From the IMG/VR virus record IMGVR_UViG_3300042453_002338, positions 1 through 20,900 of that record: DNA of 20,900 bases; one strand, given 5' to 3'. How positions within the stretch are numbered: position 1 is the first letter of the stretch; each line of letters starts with the position of its first letter. A program made the translations under genes and the position numbers. The notes under the pieces are model-generated. The model was not told where the DNA came from. It saw only the letters and a program-made list of their open reading frames with translations, and searched no databases. The DNA is from a virus. Below are positions 7,138 to 18,910 of this stretch, piece after piece.

Positions 7138-7413
7138 ATGACGCTTAGGGATGACCTTGATGAGTACTTTACCGATTCAGAACAGTCAGTTTTACTTGCT
7201 GACGGGTTTGATGATGCCTTAATTGGTTTTTCTGAGCAAATAGGTCGCCCTGTCCTTGCCGTGTATGCCTGGAACAAGATGATTGACATTTTGGTTGAAA
7301 GGGACGGTATGGACTTGGATGATGCTCTTGACTTTCTTGAGTTCAATGTTGTGAGTGCATGGATGGGGGAAGGCACTCCAATCATTGTTAAGCCTTTGGA
7401 TGAGTACCTTTAA
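7138..7413 (+). CDS. Small acidic phage-family protein, 91 residues
   Basis: ATG 7138 lies 3 bases after the previous stop, with no clear Shine-Dalgarno. The pattern DGFDDALIGFSEQIGRPVLAVY, then a helix, then DALDFLEFNVVSAWMGEGTPI matches a small protein I recall from many phages. It is generally annotated as hypothetical and often encoded among nucleotide-metabolism and early genes. No catalytic motif is known to me. Its TAA overlaps the next ATG (TAATG). Confidence 0.7.
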   Translation: MTLRDDLDEYFTDSEQSVLLADGFDDALIGFSEQIGRPVLAVYAWNKMIDILVERDGMDLDDALDFLEFNVVSAWMGEGTPIIVKPLDEYL

Positions 7414-8849
7414 TGCGCTTGTTCTTTGGGGGAGCGGAGAAAAGTTCGTATCGTTCCATGCTGGCATCTGCTGGTGTAGAACGGTACGGAATTAACCTTA
7501 CTCATTTTCCCATCCCAAAGCGCAAAGCCTTAGATCTTTCACAAGTATACGGTGGAGAGATTTTAATTTATACTTCTGAGACTGACGAAGACATTGCTCG
7601 GTACGACAGTTTTATTCGTGACCATGTTGACAATATTTCAGTCGTCATCGGAAGACCTGACTATGATGGTTTGTGGCTAGGAGAGAAGTATGTTCCCATA
7701 TGGAACGATGAAAACGATTTGGAAAGATTGGCGTGGCTTTGCCAAAAGTACGGTAGAGCGGCGATCAGCGACAAAGCAATCAACGCCAAAAACCAGCAAC
7801 GAATCAACGCTCTTGCCAAAAGATGGGGTGCAAAACTCATAGGACTAACGTCCAAGGTAGAAATCATCGAAGGTATCCAATGGGATACGGTGGTGGCAGG
7901 ATCTTGGTCTAGTGCCATTAGGTACGGAGAAACTCAAGTTTGGGACGGGCATTCTTTGCGACGATACCCTTCTCAGCAGAAAGAGTCAGCCCGAAAGCGT
8001 CATCGTGCTGATATTGAACGTCTAGGAGTAGACGTTGAAGCCGTTTTAAATGACGAAGTATCCGCTCTTGGCTTGCTTGCAATTAGGTCATGGCAAGCGT
8101 GGGAGCACCGAACTTTTGGGGGCTATGACCCTATGAATGACGACGACGAAGCAGAGTTCACAGGTGATGATAGGGGGGATATAACAATTACACCCCCCTC
8201 AGGTGCTACCCCCCAAAAAGTGGTTTTTGGAGGATCGGATATTGTTGCCATTCAGCCTGAGAAGCGGCACGAGAGTGAGCGCGTATTGTTGCCAGTTATG
8301 GGGGTTGAAACCATCACCTCCTTGGGGTCTCAAACCGTTGATTCTGAAGGAGAATCAATAGATTTAGCTCCTGAACAAGTATCCGTTTTACGCTATAACG
8401 CCGACCCTTTGAGGCAGTGTGATAATTGTTATCTTGCCTCACGTTGTCCTAGTTTTAAAGAACATTCTGAATGTGCGTTTCGTCTCCCTGTGGAGATCAG
8501 GACTAAAGACCAACTTCAGGCTGCAATGCGAGCGATGGTGGAGATGCAAGTTGGTCGTGTCTTGTTCGCTAGGTTTGCCGAAGAACTGGAAGGTCAAGGT
8601 CTTGACCCTGCTCTTTCAGCGGAAATGGATCGCCTGTTTACCATCATTGAACGTTTTAAAAATATATCGGACACACGAGATTTGGTTCGGTTTGAAGTTG
8701 AAGCGCGAGGATCTAGTGGAGTGTTGTCCCGCTTGTTTGGTCAGAAGGCAGGAGAAGCGGCTAGGGAACTTCCCAACGGGGGACTGAGTGCCGCAGGAGC
8801 CGACGCGATGTATGCCGAGATCATCGACCTATCAGAGGATGAGCGATGA
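7413..8849 (+). CDS. Two-part phage protein: N-terminal alpha/beta (possibly TIM-barrel) domain, C-terminal four-Cys domain
   Basis: A 478-residue protein. Residues 1-235 look like an alternating alpha/beta domain: FFGGAEKSSYRSML at the start, VVIGRPDYDG near 77-86, VPIWNDENDLERL near 94-106, LIGLT at 142-146 and SWSSAIRYGETQVWDG at 164-179. I recall similar blocks in phage proteins of probable TIM-barrel (TGT-like) type, but no transglycosylase catalytic motif is evident. Residues 240-330 are an acidic, low-complexity linker. The C-terminal part has C336-x2-C339-x5-C345-x8-C354, able to bind zinc or an iron-sulfur cluster, followed by LPVEIRTKDQL and a helical region. The start overlaps the previous stop; the end overlaps the nucleotidase start. 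Function is unknown. Confidence 0.65.
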   Translation: MRLFFGGAEKSSYRSMLASAGVERYGINLTHFPIPKRKALDLSQVYGGEILIYTSETDEDIARYDSFIRDHVDNISVVIGRPDYDGLWLGEKYVPIWNDENDLERLAWLCQKYGRAAISDKAINAKNQQRINALAKRWGAKLIGLTSKVEIIEGIQWDTVVAGSWSSAIRYGETQVWDGHSLRRYPSQQKESARKRHRADIERLGVDVEAVLNDEVSALGLLAIRSWQAWEHRTFGGYDPMNDDDEAEFTGDDRGDITITPPSGATPQKVVFGGSDIVAIQPEKRHESERVLLPVMGVETITSLGSQTVDSEGESIDLAPEQVSVLRYNADPLRQCDNCYLASRCPSFKEHSECAFRLPVEIRTKDQLQAAMRAMVEMQVGRVLFARFAEELEGQGLDPALSAEMDRLFTIIERFKNISDTRDLVRFEVEARGSSGVLSRLFGQKAGEAARELPNGGLSAAGADAMYAEIIDLSEDER

Positions 8850-10904: not shown

Positions 10905-11165
10905 ATGGAAAACACAATTAGTTACGACAACATCTGTGGGACTGGAGAAGCCGCAGAGGTTTTGGGTGTAAGCAAACAGCGCATCCACTCCCTCCGCAAG
11001 CACCCGAGTTTCCCCGCACCCATCCGGGAAATCTCCGCTTCTCCCATTTGGGACAAGACCCATCTCGTTGAGTTTTTGACCATCTGGCAACCACGCAAGA
11101 AGAAGACAGCAGAAGTGATCAACACGGAAGTGAGCAATGAAGAACTCCACGGATTGGCAGCGTAA
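10905..11165 (+). CDS. Helix-turn-helix DNA-binding protein (MerR/excisionase-like)
   Basis: An 86-residue protein with AAAGGAG about 8 bases before ATG 10905. Residues 12-58 form a winged-helix HTH of the MerR/AlpA type: GTGEAAEVLGVSKQRIHSLRKHPSFPAPIRE, followed by PIWDKTHLVEFL. A basic segment WQPRKKK (61-67) and an acidic tail follow. Proteins like this act as excisionases or as small transcription regulators; no integrase is visible here, so regulation of nearby phage promoters is at least as likely. The next gene overlaps its end by 29 bases. Confidence 0.75.
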   Translation: MENTISYDNICGTGEAAEVLGVSKQRIHSLRKHPSFPAPIREISASPIWDKTHLVEFLTIWQPRKKKTAEVINTEVSNEELHGLAA

Positions 11166-11513: not shown

Positions 11514-12549
11514 CTGGATTGCCCCAGGACGCTTTGATGATCGTGAACATTGGGGTGGTGCTGGATGGGCACGACTGGCAAAGTACATGCCCTATTTGGA
11601 TTATGAATGCGTAAATGGCACTCTAACGTGGAACGGCAGTCACTTTCAGATTCGTGACATCTACGGAAACCTCTATGACACCGATGTCATCATTCTTCAA
11701 CGGCTCATGCACAAAGGTCTTTCTAAGCATGTCAAGAGTGCTAAGGCTGTTGGTCAAGTAGTCATTAACGAAGTAGACGATTGGTACTGGGGGTTGTCCC
11801 CGAGTAATCTTGCATGGAGTACATCCAATCCACGAGATAACAAAGACGAGAACATCAATCACTACAAGTCAATCATCATGGCTAGTACCCTGATTGTGGT
11901 CTCCACTCCGTATCTCTACGAGCGTATTACTGCGTGGAACCCCCAGTGCCCCGTCGTCATTCTCCCAAATACCGTTGATGTGGACTCTTTCACACCAGTC
12001 GTACACACGGATCGCACCCCTGTTGTTGGGTGGGTCGGGTCTACCGGACACAGGTCAGGGGATATTGAAACTCTGCGTGGCATTCTTCCCCCTCTTGCCA
12101 AAGAAGGTTCTATCTCTCTGTATCACGGAGGAGCAGGCGGGCACACGAGTTTTGCAACTCTTCTTGGAGTCCCTGATGAGATGGTGACTACTGCACCTTT
12201 GTGCGAAGCAGAAGAGTATCCAAAACTTTTAACGATGGACATTGGCGTGGCTCCATTGAAAGATACCCCCTTTAATCACGCTAAGAGCGAGATCAAGCTG
12301 ATGGAGTATTCTGCATCAGGAATCCCTTGGGTTGCTACAAAACTCAGTTCGTATCAGCGATTTGCTGAAAACATGGGCATGGGAAGACTTGCTAAAAATG
12401 GAAAGCAGTGGGTCAGCCACCTCAAGGCGTTGATGGACGTAAACACACGCATTGAGGAAGGCGCACGACTCCGAGAACTCGTACGAATGTACGACATTAA
12501 ACACGGAGTAACAGCGTGGAATGATCTGTTAGACCACTTCAAGCCCTGA
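11488..12549 (+). CDS. GT4-like (GT-B fold) glycosyltransferase
   Basis: A 353-residue protein with AAGGA at 11479-11483, 4 bases before ATG 11488. It has the two-domain GT-B plan: an N-terminal domain with VVINEVDDWYW (91-101), then STPYLYERI and VILPNTVDVDSF (157-168), and a nucleotide-sugar domain with GWVGSTGH (181-188), DIGVAPLKDTPFN (251-263) and KSEIKLMEYSASGIPWVA (266-283), where the glutamates and the ASGIP loop are typical of GT4 sugar-donor binding. It transfers a sugar to an unknown acceptor: phage DNA, virion protein or host surface glycan. Its 3' end overlaps by 21 bases the 3' end of the convergent WhiB gene. Confidence 0.8.
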   Translation: MKIGIASADWIAPGRFDDREHWGGAGWARLAKYMPYLDYECVNGTLTWNGSHFQIRDIYGNLYDTDVIILQRLMHKGLSKHVKSAKAVGQVVINEVDDWYWGLSPSNLAWSTSNPRDNKDENINHYKSIIMASTLIVVSTPYLYERITAWNPQCPVVILPNTVDVDSFTPVVHTDRTPVVGWVGSTGHRSGDIETLRGILPPLAKEGSISLYHGGAGGHTSFATLLGVPDEMVTTAPLCEAEEYPKLLTMDIGVAPLKDTPFNHAKSEIKLMEYSASGIPWVATKLSSYQRFAENMGMGRLAKNGKQWVSHLKALMDVNTRIEEGARLRELVRMYDIKHGVTAWNDLLDHFKP

Positions 12550-12843
12550 GTTGCTGGTCTTCCGACTGCGCTTGAACAGGACTCCACCCCATACGCCTTC
12601 TTTTGCTTTGGACTCCACCCCATACTTGTAGCAGTCGTCCTTCACGACACACTTTCCGCAGATTTCCTCTAATGCTTTTTTGAGCCTTTCGGGGTTTCTT
12701 CTTGCTGGTGGAAAGAACAGGACATTGGTCAGGTCACTTTTACCGCGACAGTTAGCCCTTTCCTTCCACGTTGGGTCTCCAGTGAATACAAAACTGTACT
12801 CCGATTCAACTCCGCCATTGAGGTGCATTCGTGAAACAGCCAT
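12529..12843 (-). CDS. WhiB-family iron-sulfur regulator (number 2)
   Basis: A 104-residue protein. ATG at 12843 shares its A with the TGA of the SNF2 gene (TGATG) and has AAAGGA upstream. WhiB features: WKERANC with C32, LFFPP (42-46), C62-x2-C65-x5-C71 (CGKCVVKDDC) and GVWGG at 83-87, followed by a basic tail KRSRKTS like the DNA-contacting end of host WhiB proteins. It is closer to a minimal WhiB than number 1 and lacks the extra Cys motif. Co-transcribed with the SNF2 helicase, it may regulate phage or host promoters through the host sigma factor. Confidence 0.9.
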   Translation of the reverse strand: MAVSRMHLNGGVESEYSFVFTGDPTWKERANCRGKSDLTNVLFFPPARRNPERLKKALEEICGKCVVKDDCYKYGVESKAKEGVWGGVLFKRSRKTSNSGLEVV

Positions 12844-14744
12844 CACATTCCTTTCATCATTTGTGCCAAGATCAAAGCGGTAATACTCCCCGCTTCAACT
12901 TCCATATTTACTGCCCACCCGTTCAAGATGGATGAAACGACTTCCTTCTTGTCATTCAGAACTCGCCACATCTGCGAGTCAATAGTTCCTGCTCCCTTGG
13001 GGTCAATGGCAGTGAACCACCACGCGACCACAGGGTTGACAGTGCCCACCCTGTGACAGCGATCTTCTGCCTGCTCGCCCATAGAAGGCGACCAAGGCAA
13101 CTGTGCCAACACAACATGGCGACTGGATGTCAAAGTGATGCCCGTCCCTGCCGCCATGTATTGACCGATAATGACATCAATCTCACCGCGCTGAAACTTC
13201 TCAACGTGATTGTGCTTTGTCTTGGCATCCACACCACCGTTGATAACAACAACTTTGTGCTTGTTGCCAAGTTTCTCTTTCAAATCTTTAATAACACTGG
13301 TGTGATGGGCGAACACAACTACCTGTTCTCCTTCTGCAAGGATGTTAAGACAATGCTCAACTACGGCATTGACCTTTGCCAATCCCAACAGTTCCCACAA
13401 CTTGTTCATTTGTACAATAACTTTGGCATTTGACGCAGCAACGAGAGCATCCAATCCGTAAGTCTCATACACCCAAGTAAGAAAGTCAGTTTCAGCCTTG
13501 CGATACTCCGTCATTACTTGATCAGACAACTCAACATCTACCTGCGCACGACGCTTCGGTGGAAGTTCAGTGAGTACATCTTCTTTCCGGTGTCGTGCCA
13601 TGCACGTTCCGGTGAGAATCTGATTCAGTTCTGAAGTGTTCGTTGCCCCACTGTAGTTTGGGAACCCATTGACCACTTTGTAATCACAGTAACGATTGTA
13701 AAAGTTACGACGAGTGCCGAACACACTGTCCAGCCTGTCAATGATCCTAAGAGGAGATACCAACTCAGACGGACGATTGGGTGTGATAGTTCCACTCATC
13801 AACACAACGTACCCATCGCGGTCAATCATGTTGGCGATGTTGTAGATAGCACGAGATCTCTGAGCCTTCATGTTTTTTACAGAGTGTGCTTCATCAACGA
13901 TGAGGCATTGGTACTTTTGCATCAGCACGTTTTGCCAGTTCGCCACAATGGAATCACTAATGATGAGCGCATCATGGGAGTCAATCTTGTATGGAGTACG
14001 ACCACTCACTGTTGTTACTTTCATCCAAGGCGCGAACTTTTCGCACTCATGCACCCAGTTCCACCGCAAATGTGCAGGAACAACAATCAGTGCTTTCTTA
14101 CCCTCAGTAATAGCATTGAGAGCAATAGCGATTCCAGTAGGGGTCTTACCAAGACCCATAGCATCAGTAATGAGGCAACGCTTAGTCCTAATGGCGTACT
14201 CAACAGATGCTTTTTGGTAGTTCAACAATGGCAGTTTCAGATCAACCGAACACACCCCATTGTGAGCCTTAGAAAGTTCCATGAGGTAGGGATCGGGCAC
14301 AACCGCAGGTTGGATTCGTGGAAGAACCGAACACATGGATTCCAGTTCCCTTCGTACACGCGCAGTGTCAATGAAGTTCGCTGAAAGACCCACAACAGGA
14401 GAACAATCTTCCAAGCGGTGGTATGTGTCCCAACCGCCGTCATGGAACGCGCAGTATCCATTTCCAGTTTCTACGATCTCGCCACACAAGACGCATTTGT
14501 CTTTTCTAGTATTGACAATGATCGCTGTCGTATTTACCGGAAGATGTAACTGGCTTTCATTGCGAGTAACAGGAATGCCTTTAATGTAGGACTCCAAGTC
14601 AATCCCTGAACGAATGGTCAGAGAATCCAACTTCTGTTCTTCAATAAAGTTGTCAATCTCGTCCTCTGAAATGCCAATAGAAGCGGTACGCTCCATTAAC
14701 GCAACGCGGATACGACTTTGCTGTTTAGGTGTGATACCTGTCAT
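12843..14744 (-). CDS. SNF2-family DEAH helicase/translocase
   Basis: A 633-residue protein. Start chosen at ATG 14744 with AAAGGA upstream; the frame runs 84 codons further, across the divergent promoter region, and that part lacks coding character. A zinc knuckle C84-x2-C87 with C98 and H101 precedes the motor. Motifs: Q-like LNYQKASVEYA (174-184), Walker A DAMGLGKT (194-201), DEAH (284-287), SGT (317-319), FAHHTS (478-483), AAGTGITLTSS (531-541) and QAEDRCHRVG (558-567). These define a SNF2 ATPase close to SMARCAL1-type annealing helicases and phage T5/actinophage homologues. It probably remodels replication or recombination intermediates. Its promoter is divergent from the right arm and shares its operator. 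Confidence 0.92.
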   Translation of the reverse strand: MTGITPKQQSRIRVALMERTASIGISEDEIDNFIEEQKLDSLTIRSGIDLESYIKGIPVTRNESQLHLPVNTTAIIVNTRKDKCVLCGEIVETGNGYCAFHDGGWDTYHRLEDCSPVVGLSANFIDTARVRRELESMCSVLPRIQPAVVPDPYLMELSKAHNGVCSVDLKLPLLNYQKASVEYAIRTKRCLITDAMGLGKTPTGIAIALNAITEGKKALIVVPAHLRWNWVHECEKFAPWMKVTTVSGRTPYKIDSHDALIISDSIVANWQNVLMQKYQCLIVDEAHSVKNMKAQRSRAIYNIANMIDRDGYVVLMSGTITPNRPSELVSPLRIIDRLDSVFGTRRNFYNRYCDYKVVNGFPNYSGATNTSELNQILTGTCMARHRKEDVLTELPPKRRAQVDVELSDQVMTEYRKAETDFLTWVYETYGLDALVAASNAKVIVQMNKLWELLGLAKVNAVVEHCLNILAEGEQVVVFAHHTSVIKDLKEKLGNKHKVVVINGGVDAKTKHNHVEKFQRGEIDVIIGQYMAAGTGITLTSSRHVVLAQLPWSPSMGEQAEDRCHRVGTVNPVVAWWFTAIDPKGAGTIDSQMWRVLNDKKEVVSSILNGWAVNMEVEAGSITALILAQMMKGM

Positions 14745-14770
14745 ACAGTCCTTTCTGTTGTCCGTGTCGC

Positions 14771-14798
14771 ATCCTATCTGGATTGGGACGATTCCCAC
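14771..14798 (-). promoter_or_regulatory. Minus-strand promoter of the SNF2-WhiB unit
   Basis: On the minus strand, GGTGGG (14799-14794), a 17-bp spacer and TAGGAT (14776-14771) make a TAnnnT promoter. Transcription would start near 14764, about 20 bases before ATG 14744 and just ahead of its AAAGGA. The -10 lies 30.5 bp from the centre of the palindrome at 14799-14814. Confidence 0.55.
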
Positions 14799-14814
14799 CG
14801 TGACAAAAGTCACA
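14799..14814. promoter_or_regulatory. CRP/GlxR-like palindromic operator between divergent promoters
   Basis: The core GTGA-CAAAAG-TCAC matches the TGTGA-N6-TCACA half-site arrangement of CRP/FNR-family sites (GlxR and Crp in Actinobacteria). The symmetry extends to CCACCGTGAC / GTCACAGTGG (14795-14818) with one mismatch. It lies midway between two opposed -10 elements. Binding protein unknown; a phage repressor is equally possible. Confidence 0.55.
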
Positions 14815-14842
14815 GTGGAAAATGGTGAGTACCCTGTACAAT
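14814..14842 (+). promoter_or_regulatory. Plus-strand promoter of the right-arm genes
   Basis: AGTGGA (14814-14819), a 17-bp spacer and TACAAT (14837-14842). The weak -35 is what an activator-dependent promoter would show: the palindrome centre would sit about 42 bp before the predicted start (near 14849), the class II activator position. A leader of about 29 bases with AAAGGAG precedes ATG 14878. Confidence 0.55.
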
Positions 14843-14877
14843 CGTGTGTGAACATTGGACAACTAAAGGAGACACAG

Positions 14878-15132
14878 ATGACTGTCCGTACCATCATCGG
14901 CGCAAACGCCGTAATCAAATGGGGGCACGACGACCCCGAAACTGAAAATGTGTACATTTCGTTTGGACGCGAAGTTGCTGACATCGACGGTTTCATTTAC
15001 GGCGACACTTTTGGAGTCAATGACTATCGTATCTTTTTCTACGGATCACCCTCAGATGAGGAGAACTACCGCGAAGGACATGAAGATTGGGTTTTGGTTG
15101 ATTGGGAGTTTGTGTACCGTGACGAAGCATGA
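14878..15132 (+). CDS. Small acidic hypothetical protein, 84 residues
   Basis: ATG 14878 follows AAAGGAG (about 14865-14871) and is the first gene of the right arm. The protein is acidic with strand-like segments (VYISFGREVADIDGFIYGD, then VLVDWEFVYRDEA). The frame is open upstream to 14614 but that would cross the promoter region. No family is recognised; small acidic early phage proteins often inhibit host factors, which is only a general analogy. Confidence 0.7.
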   Translation: MTVRTIIGANAVIKWGHDDPETENVYISFGREVADIDGFIYGDTFGVNDYRIFFYGSPSDEENYREGHEDWVLVDWEFVYRDEA

Positions 15133-15142
15133 AGGAGACATT

Positions 15143-15388
15143 GTGAGCGTACCGACAAAGGTAAAAGTGTTCGGCAAGATGTGGGCACTGAAATACATCC
15201 TCACACATCCCAACTGGAAGAATGAATACGAAGACACATGGACTTCATTTTCCAACTACGACATTAACTTGTACGTTGAGGAAGGGTATCTGAGCGTTTG
15301 CGCTTACCCATTCACCCGTGTACTTCCTAGTGGATGTGCAGAGGTTGATTACAGCAACTGGGCAACACTCTACAGCGTGAAAGGCTGA
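15143..15388 (+). CDS. Small hypothetical protein, 81 residues, GTG start
   Basis: GTG 15143 with AAGGAG at about 15132-15137, 5 bases upstream; longer in-frame starts (14948) would overlap the previous gene almost completely and lack a ribosome-binding site. Aromatic-rich, with strands such as YDINLYVEEGYLSVCAYPF. No domain is recognised. The next gene starts two bases after its stop. Confidence 0.65.
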   Translation: MSVPTKVKVFGKMWALKYILTHPNWKNEYEDTWTSFSNYDINLYVEEGYLSVCAYPFTRVLPSGCAEVDYSNWATLYSVKG

Positions 15389-16753: not shown

Positions 16754-16790
16754 GTCACAGGTTGGTATTTCGTAAAAAAGACGATAGCGT
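16754..16790 (+). promoter_or_regulatory. Repeated promoter element E, probable leaderless promoter
   Basis: GTCAC half-site (16754-16758), then TTGGTA (16762-16767), a 17-bp spacer and TAGCGT (16785-16790), with CGATAG overlapping the -10. Seven bases separate the -10 from ATG 16798 and there is no Shine-Dalgarno, so the transcript would begin at or next to the start codon. It shares TTCGTAAAAA and GACGATAG blocks with the element at 17794. Confidence 0.6.
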
Positions 16791-17777: not shown

Positions 17778-17839
17778 TTTTGTTGGTACGATGTTGTGAT
17801 TCGTAAAAAGTGACGATAGACAGCATCGTACCAACGAAA
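17778..17839. repeat. Long inverted repeat around promoter element D
   Basis: GTTGGTACGATG (17782-17793) and CATCGTACCAAC (17824-17835) are perfect 12-bp inverted copies, extendable to 16 bp (17778-17839) with one G-U. The 30 bases between them hold the promoter -35 and -10. No T-tract follows the right arm, so a terminator is unlikely. Confidence 0.8.
17794..17822 (+). promoter_or_regulatory. Repeated promoter element D
   Basis: TTGTGA (17794-17799), 17-bp spacer, TAGACA (17817-17822), with CGATAG overlapping the -10 as in the other elements. A 19-bp stretch ending in the -35 region (17785-17803) matches 19869-19887 at 18 of 19 positions. The transcript would start near 17829 and carry only the tail of the right inverted-repeat arm. 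Confidence 0.5.
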
Positions 17840-18722: not shown

Positions 18723-18870
18723 CTCTTACACATTTACCATCACCGTTGCCAAGCGTGACGACTTGGATCATCCACGAGATGAGCAGGAAGCCTATTACTT
18801 GGTAAAGGAACGTTTAGAGAGTGGCTCGTTGCTTGACATTGTTAGTATCAACTGGCGACCGAATGAGTGA
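18715..18870 (+). CDS. Very small hypothetical protein, 51 residues
   Basis: ATG 18715 lies inside the end of the previous gene in another frame; AAGGAG is about 16 bases upstream, rather far. The sequence YTFTITVAKRDDLDHPRDEQ and the acidic helix EAYYLVKERLESGSLLDIVSI suggest a small strand-helix fold. Its stop (18868-18870) lies inside the palindrome of the next promoter element. Confidence 0.55.
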   Translation: MSDSYTFTITVAKRDDLDHPRDEQEAYYLVKERLESGSLLDIVSINWRPNE

Positions 18871-18910
18871 CAAAAGTCACGTTGGTAAAAGGTACAACTG
18901 GCGATAGGTT
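18866..18910 (+). promoter_or_regulatory. Repeated promoter element B with CRP-like palindrome, leaderless
   Basis: AGTGA-CAAAAG-TCACG (18866-18881) repeats the palindrome core of 14799-14814. It is followed by TTGGTA (18882-18887), 17-bp spacer, and TAGGTT (18905-18910) overlapping CGATAG. The -10 starts 31.5 bp from the palindrome centre, against 30.5 at 14806. Seven bases separate the -10 from ATG 18918. Confidence 0.6.

Follow-up and report, generated by a model that had tools for sequence, protein, structure and literature searches.

Features of the divergent spacer

The window, i.e. the whole stretch of DNA analysed here, is a 20.9 kb viral record with 46.7% G+C and two WhiB-like genes, genes of this kind being a hallmark of actinophages (PMC10202952). 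The features at and around its divergent spacer are as follows.

12529..12846, minus strand: WhiB-like gene (PF02467), overlapping the end of the SNF2 gene
12843..14744, minus strand: gene for a SNF2-type DNA helicase (PF00176, PF00271, phrog_62), first gene of the leftward arm, with a good ribosome-binding site
14745-14877: divergent spacer of 133 bp, separating the SNF2 helicase gene (minus) from a small ORF (plus)
14776-14771, minus strand: putative leftward -10 element TAGGAT, 16-bp spacer, predicted start ~14764
14793..14798, minus strand: putative leftward -35 element GTGGGA, first base 8.5 bp from the palindrome centre
14795..14818, no strand: extended palindrome CCACcGTGACaaaaGTCACaGTGG, from comparison of the arms; its outer arms coincide with both -35 elements
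14800..14813, no strand: Crp/GlxR-like core palindrome GTGACAAAAGTCAC, centre 14806.5, candidate shared operator by its sequence, enrichment and recurrence in IMG/VR
14815..14820, plus strand: putative rightward -35 element GTGGAA, first base 8.5 bp from the palindrome centre, resembling TTGGnA of the window promoter family
14837..14842, plus strand: putative rightward -10 element TACAAT, 16-bp spacer, predicted start ~14849
14878..15132, plus strand: first gene of the rightward small-ORF arm, with ribosome-binding site AAAGGAG and homologues in relatives

Family scans gave no match for the product of 14878..15132, and comparison of the DNA of 14300-15300 with cultured phages found no similarity. 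Farther to the left, the window carries a transglycosylase gene (7413-8849; phrog_887), whose product shares ~28% identity with a dpdA-like protein of a Streptomyces phage and is well conserved in relatives (~70%). Its presence suggests modified DNA bases.

The candidate operator is central in the spacer, with a -35 element on both shoulders and the -10 elements farther out, 30.5 bp from the palindrome centre on either side. The palindrome, its centre at 14806.5, both -10 positions and the 30.5-bp distances all agree with an earlier note on this DNA, and the interval of about 42 bp which that note placed between palindrome and each start is ~42.5 bp by the predicted starts. Its palindrome is right in the core but too short, since the symmetry extends over 14795-14818. 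The -35 regions, which it had called poor, are decent matches to the virus's own promoter consensus: the outer palindrome arms CCAC/GTGG are the first bases of a mirrored -35 pair, GTGGAA and GTGGGA, with 16 bp between -35 and -10 on either side, and both hexamers are close to the hexamers TTGGTA, TTGGTA and TTGGGA of the promoter family in the window (consensus TTGGnA). In its perfect extended form, CACNGTGACN4GTCACNGTG, the palindrome is present once in the window, with 0.17 expected even when up to three mismatches are allowed.

On both sides the operator centre is 8.5 bp before the first -35 base, at about -42.5 by predicted start and close to the -41.5 of class II activators, and two outward -35/-10 pairs, each with a gene and a ribosome-binding site, flank one palindrome, as in divergent promoters. 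Both promoters are absent from a generic sigma-70 scan of the window because their -35 and -10 elements are non-canonical. A terminator reading of the palindrome was rejected, as there is no T-run on either side and it lies upstream of both predicted starts.

Palindromes and promoters elsewhere in the window

Three copies of GTGAN6TCAC are present in the 20.9 kb window against 0.63 expected, a number reached by 1 of 100 shuffles. All three are at gene starts, each beside a plus-strand promoter. By the gene list, no more than 4.8% of the window lies between genes; the first and third copies are wholly intergenic and the second (18867) overlaps a gene's end by 4 bases. The additional copies and the predicted promoters are listed below.

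16762..16790, plus strand: predicted promoter TTGGTA-N17-TAGCGT, preceded by no more than a half site, GTCAC at 16754
17794..17822, plus strand: predicted promoter TTGTGA-N17-TAGACA, without a palindrome
18867..18880, no strand: second copy, GTGACAAAAGTCAC; the -35 starts 8.5 bp from its centre
18882..18910, plus strand: predicted promoter TTGGTA-N17-TAGGTT, preceded by the second copy
19852..19865, no strand: third copy, GTGACGAAGGTCAC, inside the full CRP consensus TGTGA-N6-TCACA
19878..19906, plus strand: predicted promoter TTGGGA-N17-TAGCGT; its -35 is 19.5 bp from the centre of the third copy

The four promoters share the pattern TTGNNA-N14-CGATAG (starting at 16762, 17794, 18882 and 19878), which is found four times against 0.02 expected, always on the plus strand and intergenic, and which we read as a putative -35 TTGGnA, 17 bp and -10 TAGnnT. 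Two of the four have GTGACN4GTCAC upstream (boxes 18867 and 19852). From box centre to -35, the distance is 8.5 bp for the copy at 14800, on both sides, and for that at 18867; at 19852 it is 19.5 bp, 11 bp or one helical turn more than for the first two copies. All three copies fit the Crp/GlxR operator GTG(N)6GNCAC, the one at 19852 reading TGTGACGAAGGTCACA. The promoter at 17794 is enclosed by an inverted repeat, GTTGGTACGATGTTG / CAGCATCGTACCAAC (17782-17836).

Recurrence and phasing of the box in viral sequences

IMG/VR was scanned for GTGACN4GTCAC followed by a gap of 0-30, TTGACA, 16-18 nucleotides and TAnnnT, so that only boxes upstream of the -35 could be found. After removal of near-identical copies there were at least 105 distinct matches (loci up to L175). 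Among the matches listed, the gaps fall into the classes 11 (at least 55), 12 (at least 8), 1-3 (at least 11) and 21-23 (at least 12), with others scattered. In-phase gaps account for 86 of the 105 matches listed compared to 27 expected (p ~3e-33) and, without gaps 11-12, for 23 of 42 compared to 8.7 expected (p ~1e-6); these p-values are optimistic, as the in-phase classes were picked after the histogram had been seen, while the gap-11 peak is independent of that choice. Among the matches listed, the concentration of gaps amounts to a helical phasing of the box relative to the promoter. An identical scan with the control palindrome CAGTGN4CACTG returned 54 stretches, 22 of them distinct, and no gap class above 3. 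For the control, 31 matches lie before TTGACA with gap 6 (within L176-L229); they reduce to 3 distinct sequences and are another phage operator family.

Of 36 records selected mostly for gap 11-12, 26 encode WhiB, compared to none, by our tally, of 14 records with off-phase gaps; the phased box is thus a feature of actinophages. GTGACN4GTCAC is common to many actinophages that are unrelated to one another and whose G+C ranges from 44 to 68%. When cellular genome contigs were scanned with gap 11 and spacer 17, only 8 matches were obtained, and hence the consensus -35 form is rare there. In three genomes from Elusimicrobia MAGs (L231, L234, L235), one and the same gene for a short predicted protein is preceded by a conserved gap-11 box with its promoter. 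In mycobacteriophage MaryV (L110), a box with gap 10 and spacer 16 points leftward within rightward genes and is probably due to chance. Some large relatives contain tandem arrays of Crp-like boxes in steps of ~16 bp (L048:1501-1562, L041:1484-1546, L045:1459-1529 and L047:1485-1514), and those of L041, L047 and L048 adjoin TTATCCACA (DnaA-box-like) repeats. These four arrays may mark an origin or else a major early promoter.

The phasing bears on two other explanations. A chance palindrome between two ordinary promoters could be imagined, as such single 14-mers are expected 0.6 times per window, but with three copies, all at promoters, and with the IMG/VR phasing we strongly disfavour it and regard it as very improbable. 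Alternatively, the palindrome could be a repressor operator, the bound dimer shutting both promoters as cAMP-CRP does at coliphage T1 pir; host cAMP-CRP is known to repress T1 promoters (PMC6737242), and the consensus-like TTGACA -35 elements of the IMG/VR set could function without an activator. The boxes of that set, however, are wholly upstream of the -35 in a scan which allowed upstream boxes only, and they are helically phased as for activators. Repression is therefore considered quite improbable, and activation remains our preferred reading.

Back-to-back promoters around one box are not confined to the window. The pattern TGTCAA-gap-box-gap-TTGACA occurs in 12 contigs, including L248 (gaps 11/11, its TAATGT and TAGTGT each following a 17-bp spacer), L094 (12/11), L083 (13/11) and the L059 group (3/12). 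By the same measure the gaps of the window's pair are 1/1, and in view of the pairs in L248, L094, L083 and L059 it is one of several. The DNA of L248, L083 and L123 had no match to cultured phages. The earlier note had proposed a CRP/GlxR-like box common to two outward promoters in an activator-type position, and this proposal is borne out to the extent that the box recurs at phased promoters elsewhere.

Relatives that share the gene order

The SNF2 protein alone retrieved distant relatives only; the family was found with the tRNA-guanine transglycosylase and with a SNF2 alignment. In the SNF2 relatives (~50% identity), a divergent spacer with a palindrome is often present, usually of other sequence: AGTCACGAATCCTAGGAATCGTGACT in L027/L259, CAAATCCTAGGATTTG in L250 and a CCATGGGGTA-type palindrome in L253. 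The spacers of L027/L259, L249, L250 and L251 contain outward copies of TAGGATTYG exactly 21 nt before TAnnnT, and in L250 and L259 these copies overlap and form a palindrome. Two Crp-like sites, each with one mismatch and 16 bp from the other, lie upstream of SNF2 in L252; across every spacer tested, 0.17 sites of this kind would be expected. The architecture is thus kept in the SNF2 relatives and the box is swapped, the window carrying the Crp-like version. Conservation of palindrome and spacing in relatives of like gene order, the lack of which would by the earlier note refute its proposal, holds for the divergent architecture and mostly fails for the palindrome sequence.

TAGGATTYG-N21-TAnnnT (often TAAGGT) constitutes a second phage promoter family with 4-6 copies per locus (L027:18447, L249:2946, L250:455, L251:2945 and others), and in the spacer that precedes SNF2 its copies are arranged back to back. 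No phage sigma-70 gene was above the cut-off in the relatives searched.

These spacers are in favour of another reading, in which a phage regulator encoded outside the fragment binds the box, the operator changing from phage to phage. Several of their palindromes consist of copies, placed back to back, of the TAGGATTYG-N21-TAnnnT promoter box that belongs to the phage itself, and in cluster K mycobacteriophages the inverted-repeat consensus differs between subclusters (PMC3203893). Such a regulator may lie elsewhere in the genome, the window being a 20.9 kb fragment. A private regulator would not predict, however, that GTGACN4GTCAC spans many unrelated actinophages, and the search gave no conserved candidate. 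The HTH protein at 10905, which had been put forward as a possible binder, is unlikely to be one, as it has homologues in relatives in which the stretches read contain no box. We therefore regard a phage regulator as unlikely, though less so than repression, and prefer a host activator.

Candidate binding proteins

The consensus of S. coelicolor Crp is GTG(N)6GNCAC and that of C. glutamicum GlxR is GTG(N)8CAC (PMC10033298); the box motif equals the former and fits the latter. M. smegmatis Crp is able to activate from an upstream position, -81.5 (PMC4218801).

With two Pfam models, a cNMP-binding domain was found in none of 49 box-bearing or related phage records, while the positive control was detected in 11 of 14 genomes. 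The absence of such a protein from the phages tested favours a host regulator. A phage-encoded Crp was rejected for lack of a cNMP domain in these 49 records; the HTH_Crp_2 matches above the cut-off that were read (G010, G005) adjoin a DnaC-like loader and look like replication proteins.

Among hosts, 93 larger genomes of one actinobacterial class contain the motif 555 times compared to 192 for the control, and 26 genomes of the same class of at most 1.1 Mb show no excess (4 against 4). The same two models detected cNMP-binding proteins in 9 of the 12 larger actinobacterial genomes tested and in none of the 16 small (at most 1.1 Mb) genomes tested. A host Crp-like protein read from L328 has the recognition helix ASRERVNKAL, which we take to resemble that of E. 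coli CRP. The best candidate binder would therefore be the host Crp, provided that the host has a genome of the larger type; in a host of the small-genome kind, of which the 16 tested gave no cNMP match, host Crp could not be the binder.

Rex operators (TTGTGAAN4TTCACAA) also have GTGA-N6-TCAC cores, and another dimeric host regulator, for example Rex, could bind the box. The genomes G070, G103 and G111, in which the motif is in excess and the two Pfam models gave no cNMP match, agree with this and count against host Crp. Rex has A/T at the positions beside N4 where the box has a conserved C/G (GTGAC/GTCAC), the latter matching the Streptomyces Crp GNCAC, and we hold a Rex-type binder to be slightly less probable even than repression.

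Proposed mechanism

We consider it fairly probable that the spacer is a symmetric actinophage divergent promoter at which a host Crp/GlxR-type activator binds once and serves both arms; the geometry, the repetition, the phasing, the distribution among phages and the lack of cNMP proteins in the records searched are observed, while promoter activity, the identity of the binder, activation rather than repression and co-control of both arms are what we infer. A dimer of a host regulator of the Crp/GlxR type (cAMP-binding, CRP/FNR family) would bind the GTGAC-N4-GTCAC palindrome and, as a class II-like activator, contact RNA polymerase at either promoter. Transcription of the SNF2-WhiB arm would then rise together with that of the small ORFs on the right when the host Crp is active. 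The same regulator may also serve the promoters at 18882, in the same phase, and at 19878, one helical turn farther away. The window arrangement would then exemplify a type of promoter that is common among actinophages.

The recurrence of the box in >100 other viral sequences suggests that many actinobacterial viruses read the metabolic state of the host. On the broader claim, that actinophages as a group use host Crp/GlxR to activate early genes via standard phased promoters, tuning infection to host cAMP, and some of them with one box for two divergent arms, our judgement is evenly balanced. If it is true, a large share of uncultured actinophages tie expression to host cAMP without a regulator of their own, the phased box is a sequence signature for finding such promoters and helps host assignment, and the spacer makes it possible to test the activation of two divergent phage arms by a single dimer. 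In the open-access papers searched we found no earlier description of this promoter type.

Comparison with known systems

The ESAS repeats of cluster K are similar in being inverted repeats upstream of non-structural genes with a consensus that varies among related phages, but they are imperfect repeats of 17 bp linked to a start-associated sequence of 13 bp, and a translational role has been suggested for them. Coliphage T1 pir shares with the window a phage that reads host cAMP-CRP, which is presumed here; CRP represses pir, whereas the present geometry suggests activation, and both hosts and phages differ. In the class II and divergent CRP promoters of E. coli, the site likewise adjoins the -35 and one dimer may serve two promoters; the class II centre is at -41.5, compared to -42.5 to -43.5 here by predicted starts. 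The actinobacterial Crp/GlxR promoters of S. coelicolor, C. glutamicum and M. smegmatis have the same GTG(N)6GNCAC / GTG(N)8CAC box in an upstream activator position. Here, by contrast, the genes are those of a phage, the box is combined with a good -35 and the binder is a presumed one; the box centre is ~18.5 bp before the -35 in most of the phages and 8.5 bp before it in the window pair.
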